A stretch of 45,811 nt of DNA from Acidobacteriota bacterium (GTDB taxonomy: Bacteria; Acidobacteriota; Terriglobia; Acidiferrales; UBA7541), in the NCBI GenBank assembly GCA_003224145.1, contig QHYN01000208.1:1-45811 (forward strand), in the 5' to 3' direction. Shown here piece by piece: positions 3,405 to 44,476 of this stretch (its first letter is position 1; each line of letters begins with the position of its first letter). The position numbers and the translations under genes were made by a program. The notes beneath the pieces are model-generated. The model was not told where the DNA came from. It ran no database searches and saw only the letters and a list, made by a program, of their open reading frames with translations.

Positions 3405-4634
3405 TTACTGGCCCCGGGTGAGCATCAGAAAGAGGGCCAGATAGCGCTTCAATTTTTGCGTAATGAGAAAGTTCTCCTTGACATGCTCGTGACCATGTTC
3501 TCCCAGCTTTGCGGCAATTTCCGGATGCGACAGCAAAAAGCGCATCTGATAGGCGGTGCCCTCCACGGAGTGGGTCAGCAGGCCGGTGTGCTTGTGAATG
3601 ATTTGCGTTGGAATGCCCCCGACAGCGGAAGCGACGACCGGCTTTTTTTTCCAGAGCGCTTCCGATACGGTGAGGCCGAAACCTTCGCGCAGACTTTTCT
3701 GGATGACGATCGTCGAAGCGCGCTGGAGCGCATTCACTTCGAGCGGCGCCCAAGCCGGGAGTTCGAGGATCTTGATGTCAGGATCGTGGCCCGCTTCGCG
3801 CCGGACTTCTTTGAGAACGATGGAGCCCTCGGGATCGTCTGCGGCGCTGCCGCCTGCAAGGACCAACTGGCAATCGAAGTAGCGCTTCACGATGCGGTAG
3901 GCACGGATTACGCCGACAGGATCCTTCAAGCGGTCGAAGCGGGAAATCTGAGTCAATATGGGACGTTGCGCGTCAATCTGGTAGCGATGCAGCGTTTGTT
4001 CGATAAATTCCTGATCAAGCGGGCAGTTCTTTTCGGAAAGCGGGTCAATGGCAGGATAAAAAAGATATTGCGGGATGGGGAGTTGCCGCGAAAATTCGGG
4101 AGAAGAAAACATGGCCCCGTCATAGCGCGAGACAAACTTCTCCAGAAACTCCCAGACTGCGCGATTCGGATGCGAGAGATCGATATGGCAGCGCCACACC
4201 CAATGATTGGAGCCGGGCTGCCTCGCGTCAATCAGGGCGGCTGGTTGCGGGTCATGGATGACTACGATTTCTGCATCGAGCGGCAGGGTTGTGCGATTAT
4301 GTTCGTTGTAAGCGAGAAAGATCTCGAAATCCCGGGGGCTGGCGTGATAGGGCTCACCATGCAAGGCGTTATGGAAGGACTTGGTGACGTCGAAAAAATC
4401 TTCGGCGCCGCTCATCACGTCCCATTTGATATTGAGGTCCAATTCTTCCGCGAGAGGAACGAGGCGGTTGAGAATTTCCGCAACGCCTCCGCCCACGGCG
4501 GTTGAGTTGATCATCTCGATGCTGCGCCCTTGTAAGGGTTTAGCCAGGGCGCGCAATTCCTCAATTTCACCGGCGCCAATCAATTCAGCGTAGTGGTCCA
4601 GGGGAATGCGGCTCACAACCAGAGTTTCCCTCAC
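3405..4634 (-). CDS. treT: TreT-like trehalose synthase (GT4 glycosyltransferase)
   Basis: 409 residues, GT-B fold. Signatures match trehalose glycosyltransferring synthase TreT, which joins glucose from NDP-glucose to free glucose to give trehalose in one reversible step: INSTAVGGGVAEIL at 42-55, IHDPQP at 126-131, WRCHID at 147-152, SRFDRLKDP at 231-239, and the GT4 EX7E pair E317/E325 in EGFGLTVSEAL. The GTG start overlaps the stop of the upstream DUF5752 gene as GTGA, and AGGAGAAAGG precedes it, so translation is probably coupled. TreT was characterised mainly in thermophiles such as Thermococcus and Thermoproteus. A related trehalose phosphorylase of GT4 is the main alternative; the acceptor was not tested by anything visible here. 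Confidence 0.82.
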   Translation of the reverse strand: MRETLVVSRIPLDHYAELIGAGEIEELRALAKPLQGRSIEMINSTAVGGGVAEILNRLVPLAEELDLNIKWDVMSGAEDFFDVTKSFHNALHGEPYHASPRDFEIFLAYNEHNRTTLPLDAEIVVIHDPQPAALIDARQPGSNHWVWRCHIDLSHPNRAVWEFLEKFVSRYDGAMFSSPEFSRQLPIPQYLFYPAIDPLSEKNCPLDQEFIEQTLHRYQIDAQRPILTQISRFDRLKDPVGVIRAYRIVKRYFDCQLVLAGGSAADDPEGSIVLKEVRREAGHDPDIKILELPAWAPLEVNALQRASTIVIQKSLREGFGLTVSEALWKKKPVVASAVGGIPTQIIHKHTGLLTHSVEGTAYQMRFLLSHPEIAAKLGEHGHEHVKENFLITQKLKRYLALFLMLTRGQ

Positions 4635-5329
4635 GCCTTTCTCCTCTCCCGATCAATCAAGCGAAGCATCTTCACTCTGGCACTATCCAAGGTGTTCGTA
4701 TAGATATCGATGTGATCGACACTGTCGGCGAGAGTGCGAAGACCTAAACTGCCGGAAAGCCAATGAGAAAAATCGTTCGTCCGGAGCTGGAGCCGCAATC
4801 GGGAAGAGATGAAGTGAAAGTGGAAACCGGCGTGACTCAGGTGCTCCAAGCCCTCGCGGAACTCCTCAAGGGTACGCGCGCTCCGTCCGAGGGGCACGTT
4901 CACTTCGACGCTCTCGCAGAAGTAGAATGGCTCGAGGGCCGACTGAGCCGCAAGTTGCGGCTGGGCTGCGCAAAAATCCTGAACCACGCGGCAAAGATCG
5001 CTGCGCAGCGCCGCAATCGACGTGTAATCGCGAATGTCGAGGGCCGCTAGTTGCTCGGCGAGATCATTCCGGTTCGTGGCGGAGAGCACCCACTGGGCGA
5101 AGTCGTTCGAAAAACCCTCCGTCAAGAAGTGATGGGTGCCCAGGGTTTGAAAGGTGTGGTGGAAAATCGAAGTATCGCTGCAATGTTCGAGCCCGGTCAG
5201 TAATTCCGCCAGTGTGCCTGCAGACTGATTGCTGATGCGCGTCAGATAGGACGCCGTTACGAAATCGAAAGGCGTTTCTGCGATGTTCAAGTGAGCAATC
5301 CTTCCCTCTCCAAAATACTCCAACGCCAC
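4631..5329 (-). CDS. DUF5752 family protein in trehalose-type operon
   Basis: 232 residues, predicted soluble, with no signal peptide or membrane helix. I recognise the DUF5752 pattern: FDFVTASYLTRISNQSAGTL, SDTSIFHHTFQTLGTHHFLTEGFSNDFAQWV, and FYFCESVEVNVPLG with HFHFISSRLRLQLRTNDFSHWL. The conserved His/Asp-rich first half (HH at about 56-57 and 65-66) could be a metal or substrate site, but no catalytic role is known to me. It sits between the HAMP-GT20 synthase (42 bases upstream) and the TreT-like gene (GTGA overlap), so a role in the same pathway is inferred. The GTG start at 5329 has only a weak Shine-Dalgarno sequence. Homologues in my memory begin close to PFDFVTASYL, so a start further in is possible. 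Confidence 0.75.
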   Translation of the reverse strand: MALEYFGEGRIAHLNIAETPFDFVTASYLTRISNQSAGTLAELLTGLEHCSDTSIFHHTFQTLGTHHFLTEGFSNDFAQWVLSATNRNDLAEQLAALDIRDYTSIAALRSDLCRVVQDFCAAQPQLAAQSALEPFYFCESVEVNVPLGRSARTLEEFREGLEHLSHAGFHFHFISSRLRLQLRTNDFSHWLSGSLGLRTLADSVDHIDIYTNTLDSARVKMLRLIDRERRKA

Positions 5330-5371
5330 CCCATCGTTGCAAGAGAAGAACCGCGGCTCCGGTCAACCGGC

Positions 5372-7675
5372 TCACGGCGCGTGCTGCGCCTCCGCGCGCT
5401 CCGGCAATTCGATACGGATCTCGGTTAGATCAGAGAGAAGATGCGCGGCCCAACGGTAGACATTGTGTTCCCGCACGGTGTGCCGCATCCGCTGCATCCG
5501 CGTGGTTTGCTCGTGTTCAGGCATTTCCAGCGCGCGGTGAATGGCTCGGGCGAGCTGCGAGACGTCATACGGATTGACCAGCAGCGCGTCGGAAAGCTCG
5601 TGCGCCGCCCCGGCAAATGTGCTGAGGATCAGCACTCCGCGCTCGTCCTCGCGCGAGGCAACGAATTCCTTGGCCACCAAATTCATCCCGTCGTGCAGCG
5701 AGGTGACCATGCAGAAGGAGGCGGCCCGGTAGAAACAAGAAATTTCCTCATGAGAGTGGTGTTTTTTCCGGAACACGATGGGTTTCCAGCGAGGTGTCTG
5801 GAAACGCGTGTTGATGCGTTCGGCTTCGGTGCTGACTTCTTCGAGAAAATTCTTGTAGCGCTCGATGTCGGTACGGCTGGGCGCGCCGATCTGAACGAAA
5901 CTGAACCGCTGCTGGTAATTCGGATACAGCTCGAAAAAGCGCTCCAGTGCGCGGAAGCGCTCGAGGATGCCTTTGGTATAGTCGACGCGATCCACGCCAA
6001 CGCCAAGAAGCGAAGCCTCAATTCCCATCTCTTCGCACAAAGCAGCGCGCAGTGCGCCCGCATTAGCAAAATCGCCGGCCGTCGCCCGAGGGTTTTCAGC
6101 AAACGCCACGCTGATGGGATACGGACGCACGCGCGTGACGTGACCTTGACGATTGACGGCGAAACGATCCCATTCGGTCAGCGCTTCAAGCGCGCGGTCC
6201 ACAGTTTCCAGAAAATTGTTGCAGTGCGATTGAATGTGGAAGCCGATTAGGTCGGCACCGAGAAGGCCGTCAATCAGCTCTCGTTGCCACGGGCAAATGC
6301 CGAAGACTTCCGGATTTGGCCAGGGAATGTGCCAGAAAGTAGCAATCCGCGCGTCAGGTCGGGCCTCTTTCACCATCCTCGGGAGCAGAGCGAGGTGATA
6401 ATCCTGCGCGAGGAGAATCGGTGATTCAGCATCCTCCATTTCCTGTAAAACCACATCGGTAAAGCGTTGGTTGATTTTCTGATACTGGAGCCAGTCTTCC
6501 GGGCGAAAGATCGGGCGTGTGTGTGCGATGTGGCAGAGTGGCCAGAGCCCCTCGTTCGAAAATCCTTCGTAATATCCCTTATCCTCTTCGTCAGTAAGCC
6601 AGACTCGGCGTAGGGTATAACTCGGATGGTCGGGAGGAACGCGAAGCCGGTCGTGCGCATCAACAACTTCGCGGTCGGCGTTGCCGGAGCCATTGGCGAT
6701 CCATGTGCCATTGCACGCCAGCAGAACCGGCTCGAGCGCGGTCACCACGCCGCTGGCAGGTACGATCGTTTTAATCGATTTTCCACCGTTGAAGACGTGC
6801 ATGTAAGGCTCGCGATTCGAAACGACAAACAGTGGTTTCTCCTGAAGCTTGTTGCGCACGCTGATGCGCAGCCGCTCGGCAGTCCACAGAGAGGCATGGG
6901 AATCGCGGAGCCGGGCTTCTTCTTCCGCTGCGGCACGCGCGGTATGCAAATCCTTCGCCAAGTGTGTCACTTCATGGTGTAACTGTTCCATGATTTCGCC
7001 CTGCGGCAGCGCTGATGGCGAATTTGGCTGCCCGGTCCGCACTGTACGCAGCCAGTTTGCAGTCCGCGTCAGCGGCCCCGTAAACGTCCAGCGAACAAGG
7101 ATCAGCGCAAGGCCCGTAATCAGCAAAGTTTGTACGCCTGCATTAAGGAGGGAATCCCGCAGCGTGTGCCCGACCTGCGTATCGATGTAACTGGTATCGT
7201 GCACCAGGACGAGCGAGCCCACAACTTCGCCACCGCGGTGAAGCGGCAAGGCGTAGACATGCAATGGAACTCTATCCGATTCACGCAGCGCTAAGGTTAG
7301 CTCGGCACTTTGGAATTCGCCTGTTCCCCTGTCTTCTTTTGTGGCTCGCGAGGCGGCTGAGGGACGCAATAGGAAGGACGGCCGTAGGCCCGGGGTAATC
7401 GCCAGAACCATGCCGCTGGCATCATAAACAACAATTCCTTTCAAGTGCTCGCGCTGGCCATATCGCTCGACGAGTCGCTGCAGGCCTTTCTCCTGCCCGC
7501 GATCCAGCAGCCGTTCCACGCTATCCTGAAGACTTTCGGCGAGGATTTCCGCGCGGCGCGAGAGGTCATTGCGCAAGATGCGCTTTTCGCTGCGCACCTG
7601 GTATGCGGCGAAGAGCAGGGACACGATGGCGACGCTCACGATCAGGGGCAGGACGATTTTCAGAGTCGTGCGCAT
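5372..7675 (-). CDS. otsA: Membrane sensor-HAMP-GT20 fusion (trehalose-6-phosphate synthase-like)
   Basis: 767 residues in three parts. First, a receptor-like N-terminus: TM1 about 5-25, an extracytoplasmic region 28-176 with a PAS/Cache-like pattern ([37 protein letters not shown]), and TM2 about 178-197. Second, a HAMP module 198-248 followed by a charged helix to about 275. Third, a GT20 domain 281-755 with the donor-site residues of OtsA: D425 (QDYHL), H449 (FWHIPWP), R563 and K568 ([11 protein letters not shown]), D662 and E670 ([10 protein letters not shown]). Standard OtsA has about 470 residues and no membrane part. The acceptor-side loop reads [11 protein letters not shown] rather than the usual WFGWSG type, so the acceptor may not be glucose-6-phosphate. 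The ATG is preceded by GAGGAG. Confidence 0.85.
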
Positions 7676-41315: not shown

Positions 41316-42428
41316 TCAGTTGACGAAGCGACGAAGCCGTACATTCATCACCAGACCAATCGCCAGGAAAACAAACAGCGTGGCGGAGCCCCCGTAGCTC
41401 ATCAACGGCAACGGGATGCCGGTGACGGGCATCGCGCCGATCACCATCGCCACGTTGACCAACACATGGAACCCCAGCGCTGCCGCGACGCCCATGACCA
41501 GAAACATTCCCGCGCGATCTTTCGCGCGTTGAGCATTCTGCACTAAACGCAACAGAAGCGCCATGTACAACCCGAGAGCCAAGAGCACGCCTTTGAAGCC
41601 CTGTTCTTCAGCCCAAGCCGACATGATGAAATCCGAATAACGGACCGGGATGTAGCCCAGTTGATTCTGCGTGCCATTGCCGAACCCTTTGCCCCAGAAC
41701 CCGCCGGAACCTACGGCAATCTTTGACTGCAAAAGCTGGTAGCCGGAACCCTTGGCGTCATCTTCCGGGTGCAGGAAAGAGGTGATTCTCTCCCGCTGGT
41801 ACGGCTTGAGGATGCGCCGGCTGACGGGGGGATAAAAAACCGCCCCCACGAGCAGAACCCCTACTAGGGAAAAAGCCGCCGCATGTTGCCACTTTAAGCC
41901 CGCCAAAAAGGCACCTACTGCCAGCATCGGCATGAGCACAAGCGCCGTGCCCAAATCGGGCTGCTTGAGGATCAAGATCAGCGGAACACCCACTAACAAT
42001 CCTGCCTTGATGAGGTCCCGCAAATCAAGCTCATCGGAGCTCACTTCCGCAAAGAAGCGCGCCAACACAACTATTATAATCAATTTTACCAATTCTGACA
42101 CCTGGACAAATTCCCCCAGGGCGGGAATAGGGATCCAGCGCTTGGCGCCAAAATGGGTGCGCCCAATGAGAAGAACGGCTACGAGTGCCGCCAGGCCACA
42201 AAGATAGAGAATCGGAGCCTGGTCCAAAATCAGGTGATAGTCCACCCGCGAAAGCGCGAACATCAAAATGAAACCGACGGCCAGCCAGCGCACCTGCTTC
42301 ATGTGCATGCCGGCAAGGGAACTGCCGTGGGTGGCGGAATAAATCTCAATCACGCCGAGGGCGCAGATGGTCGCGAGAATGGCGAGAAGCCACCAGTCGT
42401 AATCGCGTGTTCCCGGCGCGTCTTTCAT
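41316..42428 (-). CDS. rodA: Rod-shape peptidoglycan glycosyltransferase RodA
   Basis: 370 residues, SEDS family. About ten membrane helices begin at DYDWWLLAILATICALGVIEIYSAT. Marks: HFGAKRWIPIPALGEFVQVSELVKL, KQPDLGTALVLMPML, GSGGFWGKGFGNGTQNQLGYIPVRYSDFIMSAWAEEQGF, and GIPLPLMSYGGSATLFVFLAIGLVMNV at the end. RodA polymerises lipid II for lateral wall growth with its PBP2 partner, which is the gene just upstream (113 bases). ATG 42428 has only a poor ribosome site. Confidence 0.94.
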   Translation of the reverse strand: MKDAPGTRDYDWWLLAILATICALGVIEIYSATHGSSLAGMHMKQVRWLAVGFILMFALSRVDYHLILDQAPILYLCGLAALVAVLLIGRTHFGAKRWIPIPALGEFVQVSELVKLIIIVVLARFFAEVSSDELDLRDLIKAGLLVGVPLILILKQPDLGTALVLMPMLAVGAFLAGLKWQHAAAFSLVGVLLVGAVFYPPVSRRILKPYQRERITSFLHPEDDAKGSGYQLLQSKIAVGSGGFWGKGFGNGTQNQLGYIPVRYSDFIMSAWAEEQGFKGVLLALGLYMALLLRLVQNAQRAKDRAGMFLVMGVAAALGFHVLVNVAMVIGAMPVTGIPLPLMSYGGSATLFVFLAIGLVMNVRLRRFVN

Positions 42429-42432
42429 AAAG

Positions 42433-42464
42433 GAAGTTGAAAGTTCAAAGTCGAAAGTTGAAAG
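42433..42464. repeat. Tandem-like GAAAGTT spacer repeat between rodA and mrdA
   Basis: GAAGTTGAAAGTTCAAAGTC followed by GAAAGTTGAAAG, four imperfect 7-8 base units. Similar purine-rich spacers occur at 27190-27312 and 33352-33390. Confidence 0.5.
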
Positions 42465-42541
42465 CCAGACAAAACTTTTGACTGCAAACGGGAAATAGGA
42501 GTCGGAGCGAATGGCCTTTTTGAATTTGTTTCATGGTGTCC

Positions 42542-44476
42542 TCAACGCTCGGGTTCGCGGTCTGGATTGGCCGGCGTGGTGTCAGCCGTTTCCTCTGTCT
42601 TGAGTGCCACTCGTGAAGCAGCCATTGCCGCTGGAACGCGTGGGCGCTGGGGTTCAGGGCGCTTGGCATCGGCAGTGAACTGCCCCTGGGTCTTCTTGTT
42701 CTTCTTATCGTAATAGGCCTTAATAATATCACGCACCACAGGTCCCGCAGCCTCGCCGCCGTGCTTTCCGCTTTCCTGCACCAGCACCGAGACGACAATC
42801 TCCGGATTGCGGCGCGGTGCATAACCGACAAACCAGGCATTGTCGAGAAATTTCTTCTGCTTGCCAAAGCGGTCGCGGGTAGCATAGCCGATCACCTGGG
42901 CAGTGCCGGATTTGCCGGAGAACTCGATGCCTTGAAGCTTGAGCGCGGCACCCGTTCCGCCACTGTTCACCACGCCGTACATGTCGTCCGTTATTTTTTC
43001 GATGGTGGACTCTGAGAGAGGGAACTTGTCCTCGTTGACATTCGGCGCATCCTTGAGCATGTGCGGCTGCATGAAGACGCCGCCGGAGGCGATGCCGCCG
43101 ATAAGGCGCGCGAGTTGCAGCGGAGTCGTGATGACGGCGCCCTGGCCAACGGCAACGGAGACAGTCTCGCCGGGGTACCACTTCCGGTGAAATACGCGCT
43201 GCACCCAATCTTCGCTGGGCATCAGGCCGGGTTCTTCGGAGGGCAGGTCAATGCCGGTCTTGCGGCCGAGGCCGAACTTGGTGGCGTAGTAGGAAATGCG
43301 ATCGATACCAAGCCGGACACCAAGGTTGTAGAAGAAAACGTCGCAGGACTGATTGACGGCCCTGTGTACGTCCACCACACCGTGGGAACTCTTGCCAAAG
43401 ACCCAGCATTTGAACTGGCGGCCGTAGAACGTGCCATAACCCGGGCAAAACACGCTGAAGCTTTCAGGGACAGCCTTTGTCTCATACATGGCGGTAGCCA
43501 TGACAATCTTGAAAACGGAGCCTGGAGCCAACTGCGCCTGAATCGCGCGATTCAGCAAGGGACGCTCCGGGTCGTCATTGAGCTTCTTCCACTCTTCCGC
43601 AGAGATGCGGATGGCAAAATCATTGGGGTCAATCGCGGGATGGCTAGCCATGGCCAAGACTTCGCCGCTGCGCGGATCGAGTGCAACGACGGCACCGGGG
43701 CGGGCGCCCAAGGACTGTTCGGCCACTTGCTGCATGTCTAGGTCGATGCTGAGCTGAATCTGTTTGCCGGGAATCGCTTCCTGCGTGGGAAGCGGGCCCA
43801 CTTCTTTTCCGATGCTGTTGACGATGACGCGCCGCTTGCCGTCGGTGCCCATCAGGATGTCATTGTATTGCCGTTCCAGGCCAAATTTTCCCGCAAAGTC
43901 CCCCATACGCAGCCTGCCGTTGCTCGCTTCAATCTGTTGCTCGCTGACTTCACCCACGTAGCCCGCGGCATGAGAAAGGAAACCGTCCGGCAGGTAGCGC
44001 CTGCGGGAAACGGAAATCATTTCCAGCACTGGAATGTCGGATTTGTGCGATTCGATGTAGGCGATGTCCGCGGGCGAAGCCTCCGGTTTGATGATGATGG
44101 ACTGAAATTTGGGGAGATTTTTTGTATTGCTGAGCTGGTCCTTCAAATCATCCAGCGAAATTCCAAGGCCTTCGGAAATGGCGGGAAGATATTTTTCCAC
44201 CAGGACTGGCTCGTCACGCAGCAGCAGAACGCTGAAGGAGGGCCGGTTGTCCACCAGCACGCGGCCGTCGCGGTCCAGCATGCGGCCGCGTGGCGCGATC
44301 ACGGGAATTTCACGAACGCGATTGCGCTCTGCCAGGGAAGCGTACTTGTCGGAGTCGATGACCTGGAGTTTCCAGAAGCCGAGCAGCAACACGCCAACCA
44401 TGCCCACAATAACATAGGATGCTATGGCCAGCCGCGCTTGCGGCAATCGATTGTCGTTGCGAAACCAGTAAGACAC
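42542..44476 (-). CDS. mrdA: Penicillin-binding protein 2
   Basis: 644 residues. Single N-terminal helix (about 17-37), pedestal domain with IAPRGRMLDRDGRVLVDNRPS, and transpeptidase domain with all three motifs: S320-V-F-K323, S377-C-D379 (SCD is normal for PBP2) and K522-S-G-T. It cross-links lateral wall peptidoglycan with RodA. The C-terminal tail after about 590 is Pro/Arg/Glu rich and disordered, longer than in many PBP2. The GTG start at 44476 gives MSYWFRNDN; upstream lies no mreC or mreD, which often precede this gene. Confidence 0.94.
   Translation of the reverse strand: MSYWFRNDNRLPQARLAIASYVIVGMVGVLLLGFWKLQVIDSDKYASLAERNRVREIPVIAPRGRMLDRDGRVLVDNRPSFSVLLLRDEPVLVEKYLPAISEGLGISLDDLKDQLSNTKNLPKFQSIIIKPEASPADIAYIESHKSDIPVLEMISVSRRRYLPDGFLSHAAGYVGEVSEQQIEASNGRLRMGDFAGKFGLERQYNDILMGTDGKRRVIVNSIGKEVGPLPTQEAIPGKQIQLSIDLDMQQVAEQSLGARPGAVVALDPRSGEVLAMASHPAIDPNDFAIRISAEEWKKLNDDPERPLLNRAIQAQLAPGSVFKIVMATAMYETKAVPESFSVFCPGYGTFYGRQFKCWVFGKSSHGVVDVHRAVNQSCDVFFYNLGVRLGIDRISYYATKFGLGRKTGIDLPSEEPGLMPSEDWVQRVFHRKWYPGETVSVAVGQGAVITTPLQLARLIGGIASGGVFMQPHMLKDAPNVNEDKFPLSESTIEKITDDMYGVVNSGGTGAALKLQGIEFSGKSGTAQVIGYATRDRFGKQKKFLDNAWFVGYAPRRNPEIVVSVLVQESGKHGGEAAGPVVRDIIKAYYDKKNKKTQGQFTADAKRPEPQRPRVPAAMAASRVALKTEETADTTPANPDREPER

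Follow-up and report, generated by a model that had tools for sequence, protein, structure and literature searches.

The known OtsA, a trehalose-6-phosphate (T6P) synthase of the GT20 family, is a soluble enzyme. We describe here a gene on the minus strand of a 45,811-nucleotide stretch of Acidobacteriota DNA (contig QHYN01000208.1 of assembly GCA_003224145.1), hereafter called the window, whose product, P0001, is predicted to carry a complete GT20 domain behind a membrane-bound sensor front of the histidine kinase type. It lies in one unit with genes for a DUF5752 protein and for a GT4 enzyme related to the trehalose synthase TreT. A described system resembling this arrangement is the msc-gt-tpsp operon of Thermoproteus tenax, in which GT20 and GT4 genes also share one operon and for which a stress response together with a membrane channel has been proposed (PMC3634074, available part). 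It differs from the window by its PimA-like GT4, by a trehalose-6-phosphate phosphatase (TPP) fused to the GT20 and by a separate mechanosensitive channel, and the available part of that paper describes no sensor on the GT20. According to the accessible sections of another study, Sulfolobus acidocaldarius uses TreY/TreZ, TreT and a GT4-like T6P synthase together, and its trehalose rises under salt stress (PMC7688234).

On the sensor side, a census of Cache domains gives as outputs chemoreceptors, histidine kinases, cyclic di-GMP enzymes, serine phosphatases, cyclases, serine/threonine kinases, transcription factors and ion channels, and its available part names no sugar synthase (PMC4822843). 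HAMP is not mentioned in the accessible portions of a Chemical Reviews article covering OtsA and TreT (PMC11046441) or of the Ramlibacter genome paper with its OtsA/OtsB/GH15 cluster (PMC3164672). Among open-licence PMC papers, a set outside which most subscription papers fall, we found no description of a bacterial T6P synthase that is fused to a sensor or bound to the membrane. If a Cache domain does have a sugar-making enzyme for its output, envelope sensing would be linked directly to compatible-solute metabolism.

Sensor front and enzyme domain of P0001

P0001 is laid out without interruption as a first transmembrane segment (TM1), an extracytoplasmic Cache domain, a second transmembrane segment (TM2), a HAMP-like segment, a coil and a complete GT20 T6P synthase domain (Table 1). 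A preliminary description, made from the letters of the window, had placed two membrane helices and a Cache-like segment ahead of the enzyme, and this holds. Hydropathy gives two hydrophobic stretches, and AlphaFold2 models of the whole protein (predicted local distance difference test, pLDDT, 85.2) and of residues 1-275 alone (pLDDT 85.9) return the same order of elements: a helix at residues 2-58/59, a short helix at 62-72, a Cache-type sheet at 78-160, a helix at 162-214 that contains TM2, and cytoplasmic helical structure from 227. In fold comparisons with Foldseek and VIA-align, the top match of the modelled front is the histidine kinase WalK (9a5d_A, an integrative model and not a crystal structure; E 1.4e-11, Z 15.9, root-mean-square deviation (rmsd) 6.0 over 266 residues). 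The crystal structure of the WalK receptor domain (4ywz) gives Z 15.5 and rmsd 2.4 over 139 residues, and DctB, CitA, DcuS and many other Cache sensors come next. A Cache fold between two TM helices is thus what the model predicts. In sequence profiles, NCBIfam WalK matches residues 5-256 (E 2.1e-8, far under its cut-off) and Pfam dCache_1 stays sub-threshold (E 0.014, 15.4 bits against a cut-off of 45); among 30 full-length members, dCache_1 matches 4 (best E 0.0012) and sCache_3_2 matches 3 (best E 4.7e-6).

The relationship with kinases extends beyond the Cache domain. Our search of sampled genomes of the phylum gave, among the matches listed, 21 places where the front only is matched (a split gene in G074 excluded); 12 were retrieved, and all 10 proteins scanned proved to be histidine kinases, each having HAMP, HisKA and HATPase_c. 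The profile of 30 GT20 fronts aligned by hhalign with that of the 10 kinase fronts over 246 columns (residues 1-255, probability 99.9, E 1.1e-32), free of gaps and with the HAMP segment covered in register; as the kinases had been found through their similarity to the P0001 front, this alignment measures the extent of the relationship and is no independent discovery of it. In the shorter kinases the Pfam HAMP domain lies at about residues 189-237. By sequence, the front of P0001 is homologous to that of histidine kinases, and it is by this homology that its HAMP part, also claimed in the preliminary description, is recognized. P0001 and WalK (YycG) share a TM-Cache-TM-HAMP front, with similarity in fold and sequence over residues 1-275, whereas the output of P0001 is a GT20 sugar synthase and not HisKA/HATPase, neither HisKA nor HATPase_c having a Pfam match in P0001.

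The enzyme part is covered nearly from end to end by Glyco_transf_20 (PF00982; E 1.7e-116, model positions 4-472 of 473, matched at residues 283-751 of P0001). D425, H449, R563, K568, D662 and E670, the six residues from which a full catalytic domain had been proposed, are invariant both in 30 full-length sequences including P0001 and in 139 GT20 domains; in the latter, R288, W325, Y369, W378 and R601, which we take to be contacts of the acceptor glucose-6-phosphate, are nearly invariant. The roles of individual donor- and acceptor-site residues are likewise presumed here. At 16 active-site positions no difference, gaps apart, separates rows with OtsB from rows without (12 and 34 rows). The closest solved structures are T6P synthases (5jij, E 4.3e-74), and the sequence identifies the domain, in our assessment, as a complete T6P synthase. 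P0001 thus resembles OtsA in its catalytic domain and differs from it by the added sensor front and two TM segments. The product could also be some other phosphorylated glucoside, such as glucosylglycerol phosphate, since P0001 falls under the NCBIfam cut-offs for both OtsA (424.5 bits, cut-off 564.85) and GgpS (306.6 bits). The higher OtsA score, the T6P synthases among the best solved relatives, the retention of the presumed glucose-6-phosphate contacts and the rank of OtsB as the commonest neighbour among those sought all speak against it, and we regard such a product as very improbable.

Recurrence of the architecture and control of the enzyme

The architecture, its conservation and its recurrence across phyla are established. 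A full-length match (query start at or before 30, end at or after 729) occurs in 29 of the 297 sampled genomes of the phylum, in one of which, G019, a stop codon interrupts the matched range (the open reading frame (ORF) there, L039, has 752 aa). In a wider scan, the record titles of the best 80 of at least 586 matches, most of them metagenome-assembled genomes, fall into eleven phylum-level groups: Acidobacteria, Elusimicrobia, Omnitrophota, Nitrospirae, Deltaproteobacteria, Verrucomicrobia, Methylomirabilis/Rokubacteria, Patescibacteria groups, Gemmatimonadetes, Edwardsbacteria and Bacteroidota. The Bacteroidota records include a named isolate, Niastella soli MAH-29 (L139). As the query was built from sensor-GT20s and two peptide patterns only were used, these loci give spread and not frequency. 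The nearest relatives with a name in this set belong to the Acidobacteria and include Candidatus Acidiferrum typicum (best-segment identity 74% for L071 and 69% for L072). The recurrence that the preliminary description had proposed to look for is therefore found, and an artefactual fusion, considered as an alternative, is rejected by these full-length matches within and outside the phylum. In a tree of 139 GT20 rows, built with FastTree only and with some long branches unsure, the window groups with L071, L072 and L134 (support 99), and sensor labels cluster, four labels requiring 9 changes against 45.4 in shuffles.

Within the front, conservation is highest at the join to the enzyme. Across 30 diverse fronts, 13 of the 25 columns of the coil/linker (residues 246-270) are conserved at 80% or more, W264 and L269 being invariant, and the mean frequency of the top residue is 0.71 there, against 0.55 in TM1, 0.52 in TM2, 0.47 in HAMP and 0.44 in Cache. 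This conservation fits a transfer of signal through the linker. Ratios of nonsynonymous to synonymous substitution (dN/dS) relative to L071 are 0.12 for the sensor and 0.06 for the enzyme, suggesting purifying selection on both.

On these grounds we suppose that P0001 is a signal-controlled, membrane-bound T6P synthase with a WalK-like Cache-TM-HAMP front within a trehalose unit, a reading we hold to be probable. A periplasmic or envelope cue would alter the state of the Cache domain and TM segments, and HAMP and the conserved coil would relay the signal to the GT20 domain, probably via changed packing in an oligomer, so that the rate of T6P synthesis would shift without any response regulator. 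The main rival is a plain membrane anchor: the kinase-derived front would have ceased to relay signals and would keep a constitutively active T6P synthase at the inner membrane, close to where sugar is imported or the envelope is made. L042, L143, L145 and L146, which have kept TM segments and linker in the absence of a Cache domain, agree with an anchor, as do the Cache columns, far less conserved than the linker. The HAMP-like segment and, most of all, the coil are however conserved across phyla, for which an anchor has no need; moreover, in 105 of 119 distinct loci the in-frame front has 220 aa or more and so room for Cache (a sample chosen by relatedness, with no fold test per locus), and purifying selection seems to act on the sensor. 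We consider the anchor rather unlikely, and control of the GT20 enzyme by the sensor, with somewhat better than even chances, the most likely reading.

Several observations weigh against control by the sensor. Pfam HAMP has no match in P0001 up to E 10, so that the HAMP module of the preliminary description stands by homology to Pfam-HAMP kinases and not by its own profile; it is also absent among the matches listed for the 30 members (25 of 43 families), and the HAMP loop of the model is of low confidence. Linker length varies by subtype (29 residues in 17 of 30 fronts, 22 in 7, 21 in 4 and 19 in 2). The four Cache-less loci, which keep one or both TM segments, a HAMP-like part and the linker, imply that sensing outside the membrane is dispensable in places. 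In the dN/dS comparison, synonymous substitutions approach saturation, and they reach it for the sensor relative to L072. Finally, the trehalose unit is loosely tied to the sensor: 54 of the 87 sensor loci (see below) have no DUF5752 or TreT on their strand, and the presence of these neighbours needs 29 changes on the 139-row tree, which means that the link comes and goes. Natural relatives without Cache or without sensor make the question of the sensor accessible by simple deletions.

A wider view would see here widespread one-component sensor enzymes, with a metabolic synthase under the control of a histidine-kinase front, in which an envelope cue sets T6P synthesis with neither phosphotransfer nor transcription and T6P is perhaps the output in lineages devoid of OtsB. 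We propose it tentatively, as a possibility falling a little short of an even chance.

Concerning variants of the front, a strict heptad rule for the linker was considered and is not supported, as lengths vary between subtypes. A second sensor subtype (L047, L049-L055, L057-L063; 13 loci assigned by alignment, L059 and L060 by tree position) stands apart by its extracytoplasmic part and by a shorter coil; of its 15 retrieved stretches, none has DUF5752 or TreT and 14 have OtsB. In L056 (G074), a frameshift or an assembly error has put sensor and GT20 out of frame with each other.

Neighbouring genes, OtsB and the fate of T6P

Same-strand neighbours were counted around 87 of the 105 distinct sensor loci; the other 18 have under 3 kb of downstream sequence. 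Near-identical entries (L106, a copy of L037; L111, a copy of L041), L022 (G262) and shorter stretches of loci already included (L001-L014, L016-L021, L023-L031) were dropped. The DUF5752 and TreT of the window and 23 OtsB seeds served as tblastn queries (E 1e-4), so distant homologues can be missed. OtsB, DUF5752 and TreT occur together in 22 loci, DUF5752 and TreT without OtsB in 9, OtsB alone in 32, OtsB with DUF5752 in 1, OtsB with TreT in 1 and none of them in 22; OtsB is the commonest. The 31 loci with both DUF5752 and TreT, 22 of them with OtsB, have the orders GT20-OtsB-DUF5752-TreT (19), GT20-DUF5752-TreT (9), DUF5752-TreT-GT20-OtsB (2) and GT20-DUF5752-TreT-OtsB (1). In L086 and L090, Nitrospirae records, DUF5752-TreT lies upstream of the sensor-GT20-OtsB genes.

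The coupling of the sensor enzyme with DUF5752 and TreT, as first described, is thus recurrent in these 31 loci and is not a general property of it. Sensor-less GT20s can carry the same neighbours, as in 11 of 20 sensor-less loci (chosen partly for DUF5752 matches), which indicates that the unit is independent of the sensor. A census of DUF5752 was compared with 25 GT20 and 22 OtsB places in the same genomes; it comprises 34 of the 35 places with E below 1e-20, leaving out G095:C4:183738, the second piece of a split gene. A GT20 or OtsB lies within 2.1 kb on the same strand in 22 of these 34, for 21 of them a GT20. A sensor or sensor remnant is present in only 6 of those 21 GT20s, and the link with DUF5752 is therefore independent of the sensor.

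The DUF5752 protein matches PF19027 (E 5e-52, 176.7 bits against a cut-off of 23) and no other Pfam family up to E 10, the HAD-type Trehalose_PPase included. The sole solved structure matched is 4CSO (E 1.8e-24), of the same family, entitled 'OrfY protein, transcription factor' by its depositors; we take its species to be Thermoproteus tenax. No literature on DUF5752, 4CSO or OrfY was found among open-licence PMC papers. The two halves of the protein are duplicates of each other (local score 77 against a mean of 26, sd 4.9 and highest value of 56 in 500 shuffles), each with an NDF..W motif. One half lies between a receiver domain and PPDK_N in both proteins of about 1000 aa that were scanned (L169:709-3720, L172:883-3867); among the DUF5752 matches listed, 41 are weak, and most of these fall in frames about 1000 aa long, with one in the genome of the window (G000:C155:5790-6017). 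The suggestion that DUF5752 could be the missing phosphatase is rejected, since it usually lies beside OtsB (22 of the 31 loci) and is related to OrfY; from its sequence relationships a regulatory role is more likely than a catalytic one, and this OrfY-like protein may regulate the unit.

The GT4 protein matches Pfam TreT_GT1 (E 1.2e-52) and, over its whole length, the solved TreT structures 6zj4 (E 4e-125) and 2x6q (E 3.9e-104), presumably from T. uzoniensis and P. horikoshii; NCBIfam Thermococcales TreT gives 389.3 bits, under its cut-off of 775. It differs from these TreT enzymes in that its gene shares a unit with those for a sensor-GT20 and DUF5752. It is the only TreT found in its genome and would make trehalose directly from NDP-glucose and glucose. 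Alternatively, the GT4 and DUF5752 proteins could form a complex with GT20 and control it. The 31 loci with both neighbours agree with this, and so does the T. tenax GT, which activates its GT20-TPP fusion by complex formation (PMC3634074, available part). That GT is closest to PimA and not to TreT, its activation requires the fusion of synthase and TPP, the GT4 of the window is a close TreT relative, and 54 sensor loci lack both neighbours; control by such a complex appears to us improbable.

In relatives, OtsB would take the phosphate off T6P. Its absence from the unit, noted in the preliminary description, extends to the entire genome of the window (G000), with no PF02358 match and a best match of the OtsB profile at E 0.8. 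Neither PF02358 nor a profile of 16 neighbour OtsBs finds OtsB anywhere in G000, G261, G084 or G121; an OtsB overlooked through divergence is rejected by this profile search. The profile controls (G265, G289; L082, L076, L144) gave rows to the profile and match it by construction, and PF02358 independently detects OtsB in G265 and G289 and not in the other four. OtsB was found in none of eight out of nine further genomes without OtsB at the locus (genomes of unstated completeness), and the ninth, G302, has OtsB-like matches elsewhere. Judged by these sequences, loss is apparently the simplest account of the absence from G000 and several relatives. As an unusual trait, the lack is real genome-wide in several lineages; same-strand OtsB near 56 of the 87 sensor loci implies that it is not part of the architecture.

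With no recognizable OtsB in G000, T6P would be handled by some other phosphatase or used as such, and the repeated absence raises the role of T6P in those lineages. In G000, no TreY or TreS was found above cut-off, with partial amylase-type matches, and no GH65 (the search did not include TreZ, trehalase and GH15); TreY is above cut-off in G084. No TreT was found genome-wide in G297 (L071) and G299 (L134) either. L134 retains DUF5752 beside GT20, and L071, the closest GT20 relative, has retained the sensor-GT20 without OtsB and TreT. T6P or a derivative, for instance a signal metabolite, might then be the output of GT20 where OtsB is missing, TreT supplying trehalose separately. The genomes devoid of OtsB, the case of L071 and the lack of GH65 in G000 favour this. 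A non-OtsB HAD phosphatase could nevertheless dephosphorylate T6P, and the further genomes are of unstated completeness, with OtsB-like matches in G302; we think such an output unlikely. In L084, a small ORF at the position of OtsB between GT20 and DUF5752 (L084:4874-5272) looks by eye like a low-molecular-weight phosphatase or arsenate reductase.

Layout of the unit

The three genes lie as first described (Table 1), ORFs and Pfam matches agreeing, and those for DUF5752 and GT4 share the four nucleotides GTGA (4631-4634), which hold a GTG start and a TGA stop. Their genome is 4.79 Mb, 95.4% complete and 4% contaminated, the window being its contig C76; one GT20 was found in it. Promoter-like sites between 2600 and 8400 are not above shuffles (2 found, 1.9 expected), giving no sign of an internal promoter.

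Table 1. Positions in the window of the sensor-GT20 gene, its predicted parts and the adjoining genes
Feature	Position	Strand	Basis
Sensor-GT20 gene, 767 aa (P0001)	5372-7675	minus	single ORF; Glyco_transf_20 match
TM1, about residues 5-27	7595-7663	minus	hydropathy; model helix 2-59
Predicted extracytoplasmic Cache domain, residues 28-175	7151-7594	minus	model; WalK receptor-domain fold match; weak dCache_1
TM2, about residues 176-197	7085-7150	minus	hydropathy; model helix 162-214
HAMP-like segment, residues 198-245	6941-7084	minus	homology to HAMP-bearing histidine kinases; block pLDDT 57-86
Coil and linker (AR..A..EARLR....WT..RL), residues 246-275	6851-6940	minus	conservation
GT20 catalytic domain, about residues 282-752	5420-6832	minus	Pfam; alignment to solved T6P synthases; invariant active-site residues
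42-nt gap between GT20 and DUF5752, where OtsB sits in relatives such as G265	5330-5371	minus	
DUF5752 (OrfY-like), 232 aa	4631-5329	minus	Pfam PF19027; 4CSO OrfY match
TreT-like GT4 trehalose synthase, 409 aa	3405-4634	minus	Pfam TreT_GT1; PDB 6zj4, 2x6q

At the far end of the window (41316-44476, minus strand), genes that by eye are rodA-like and class B penicillin-binding protein-like point to cell-wall synthesis.

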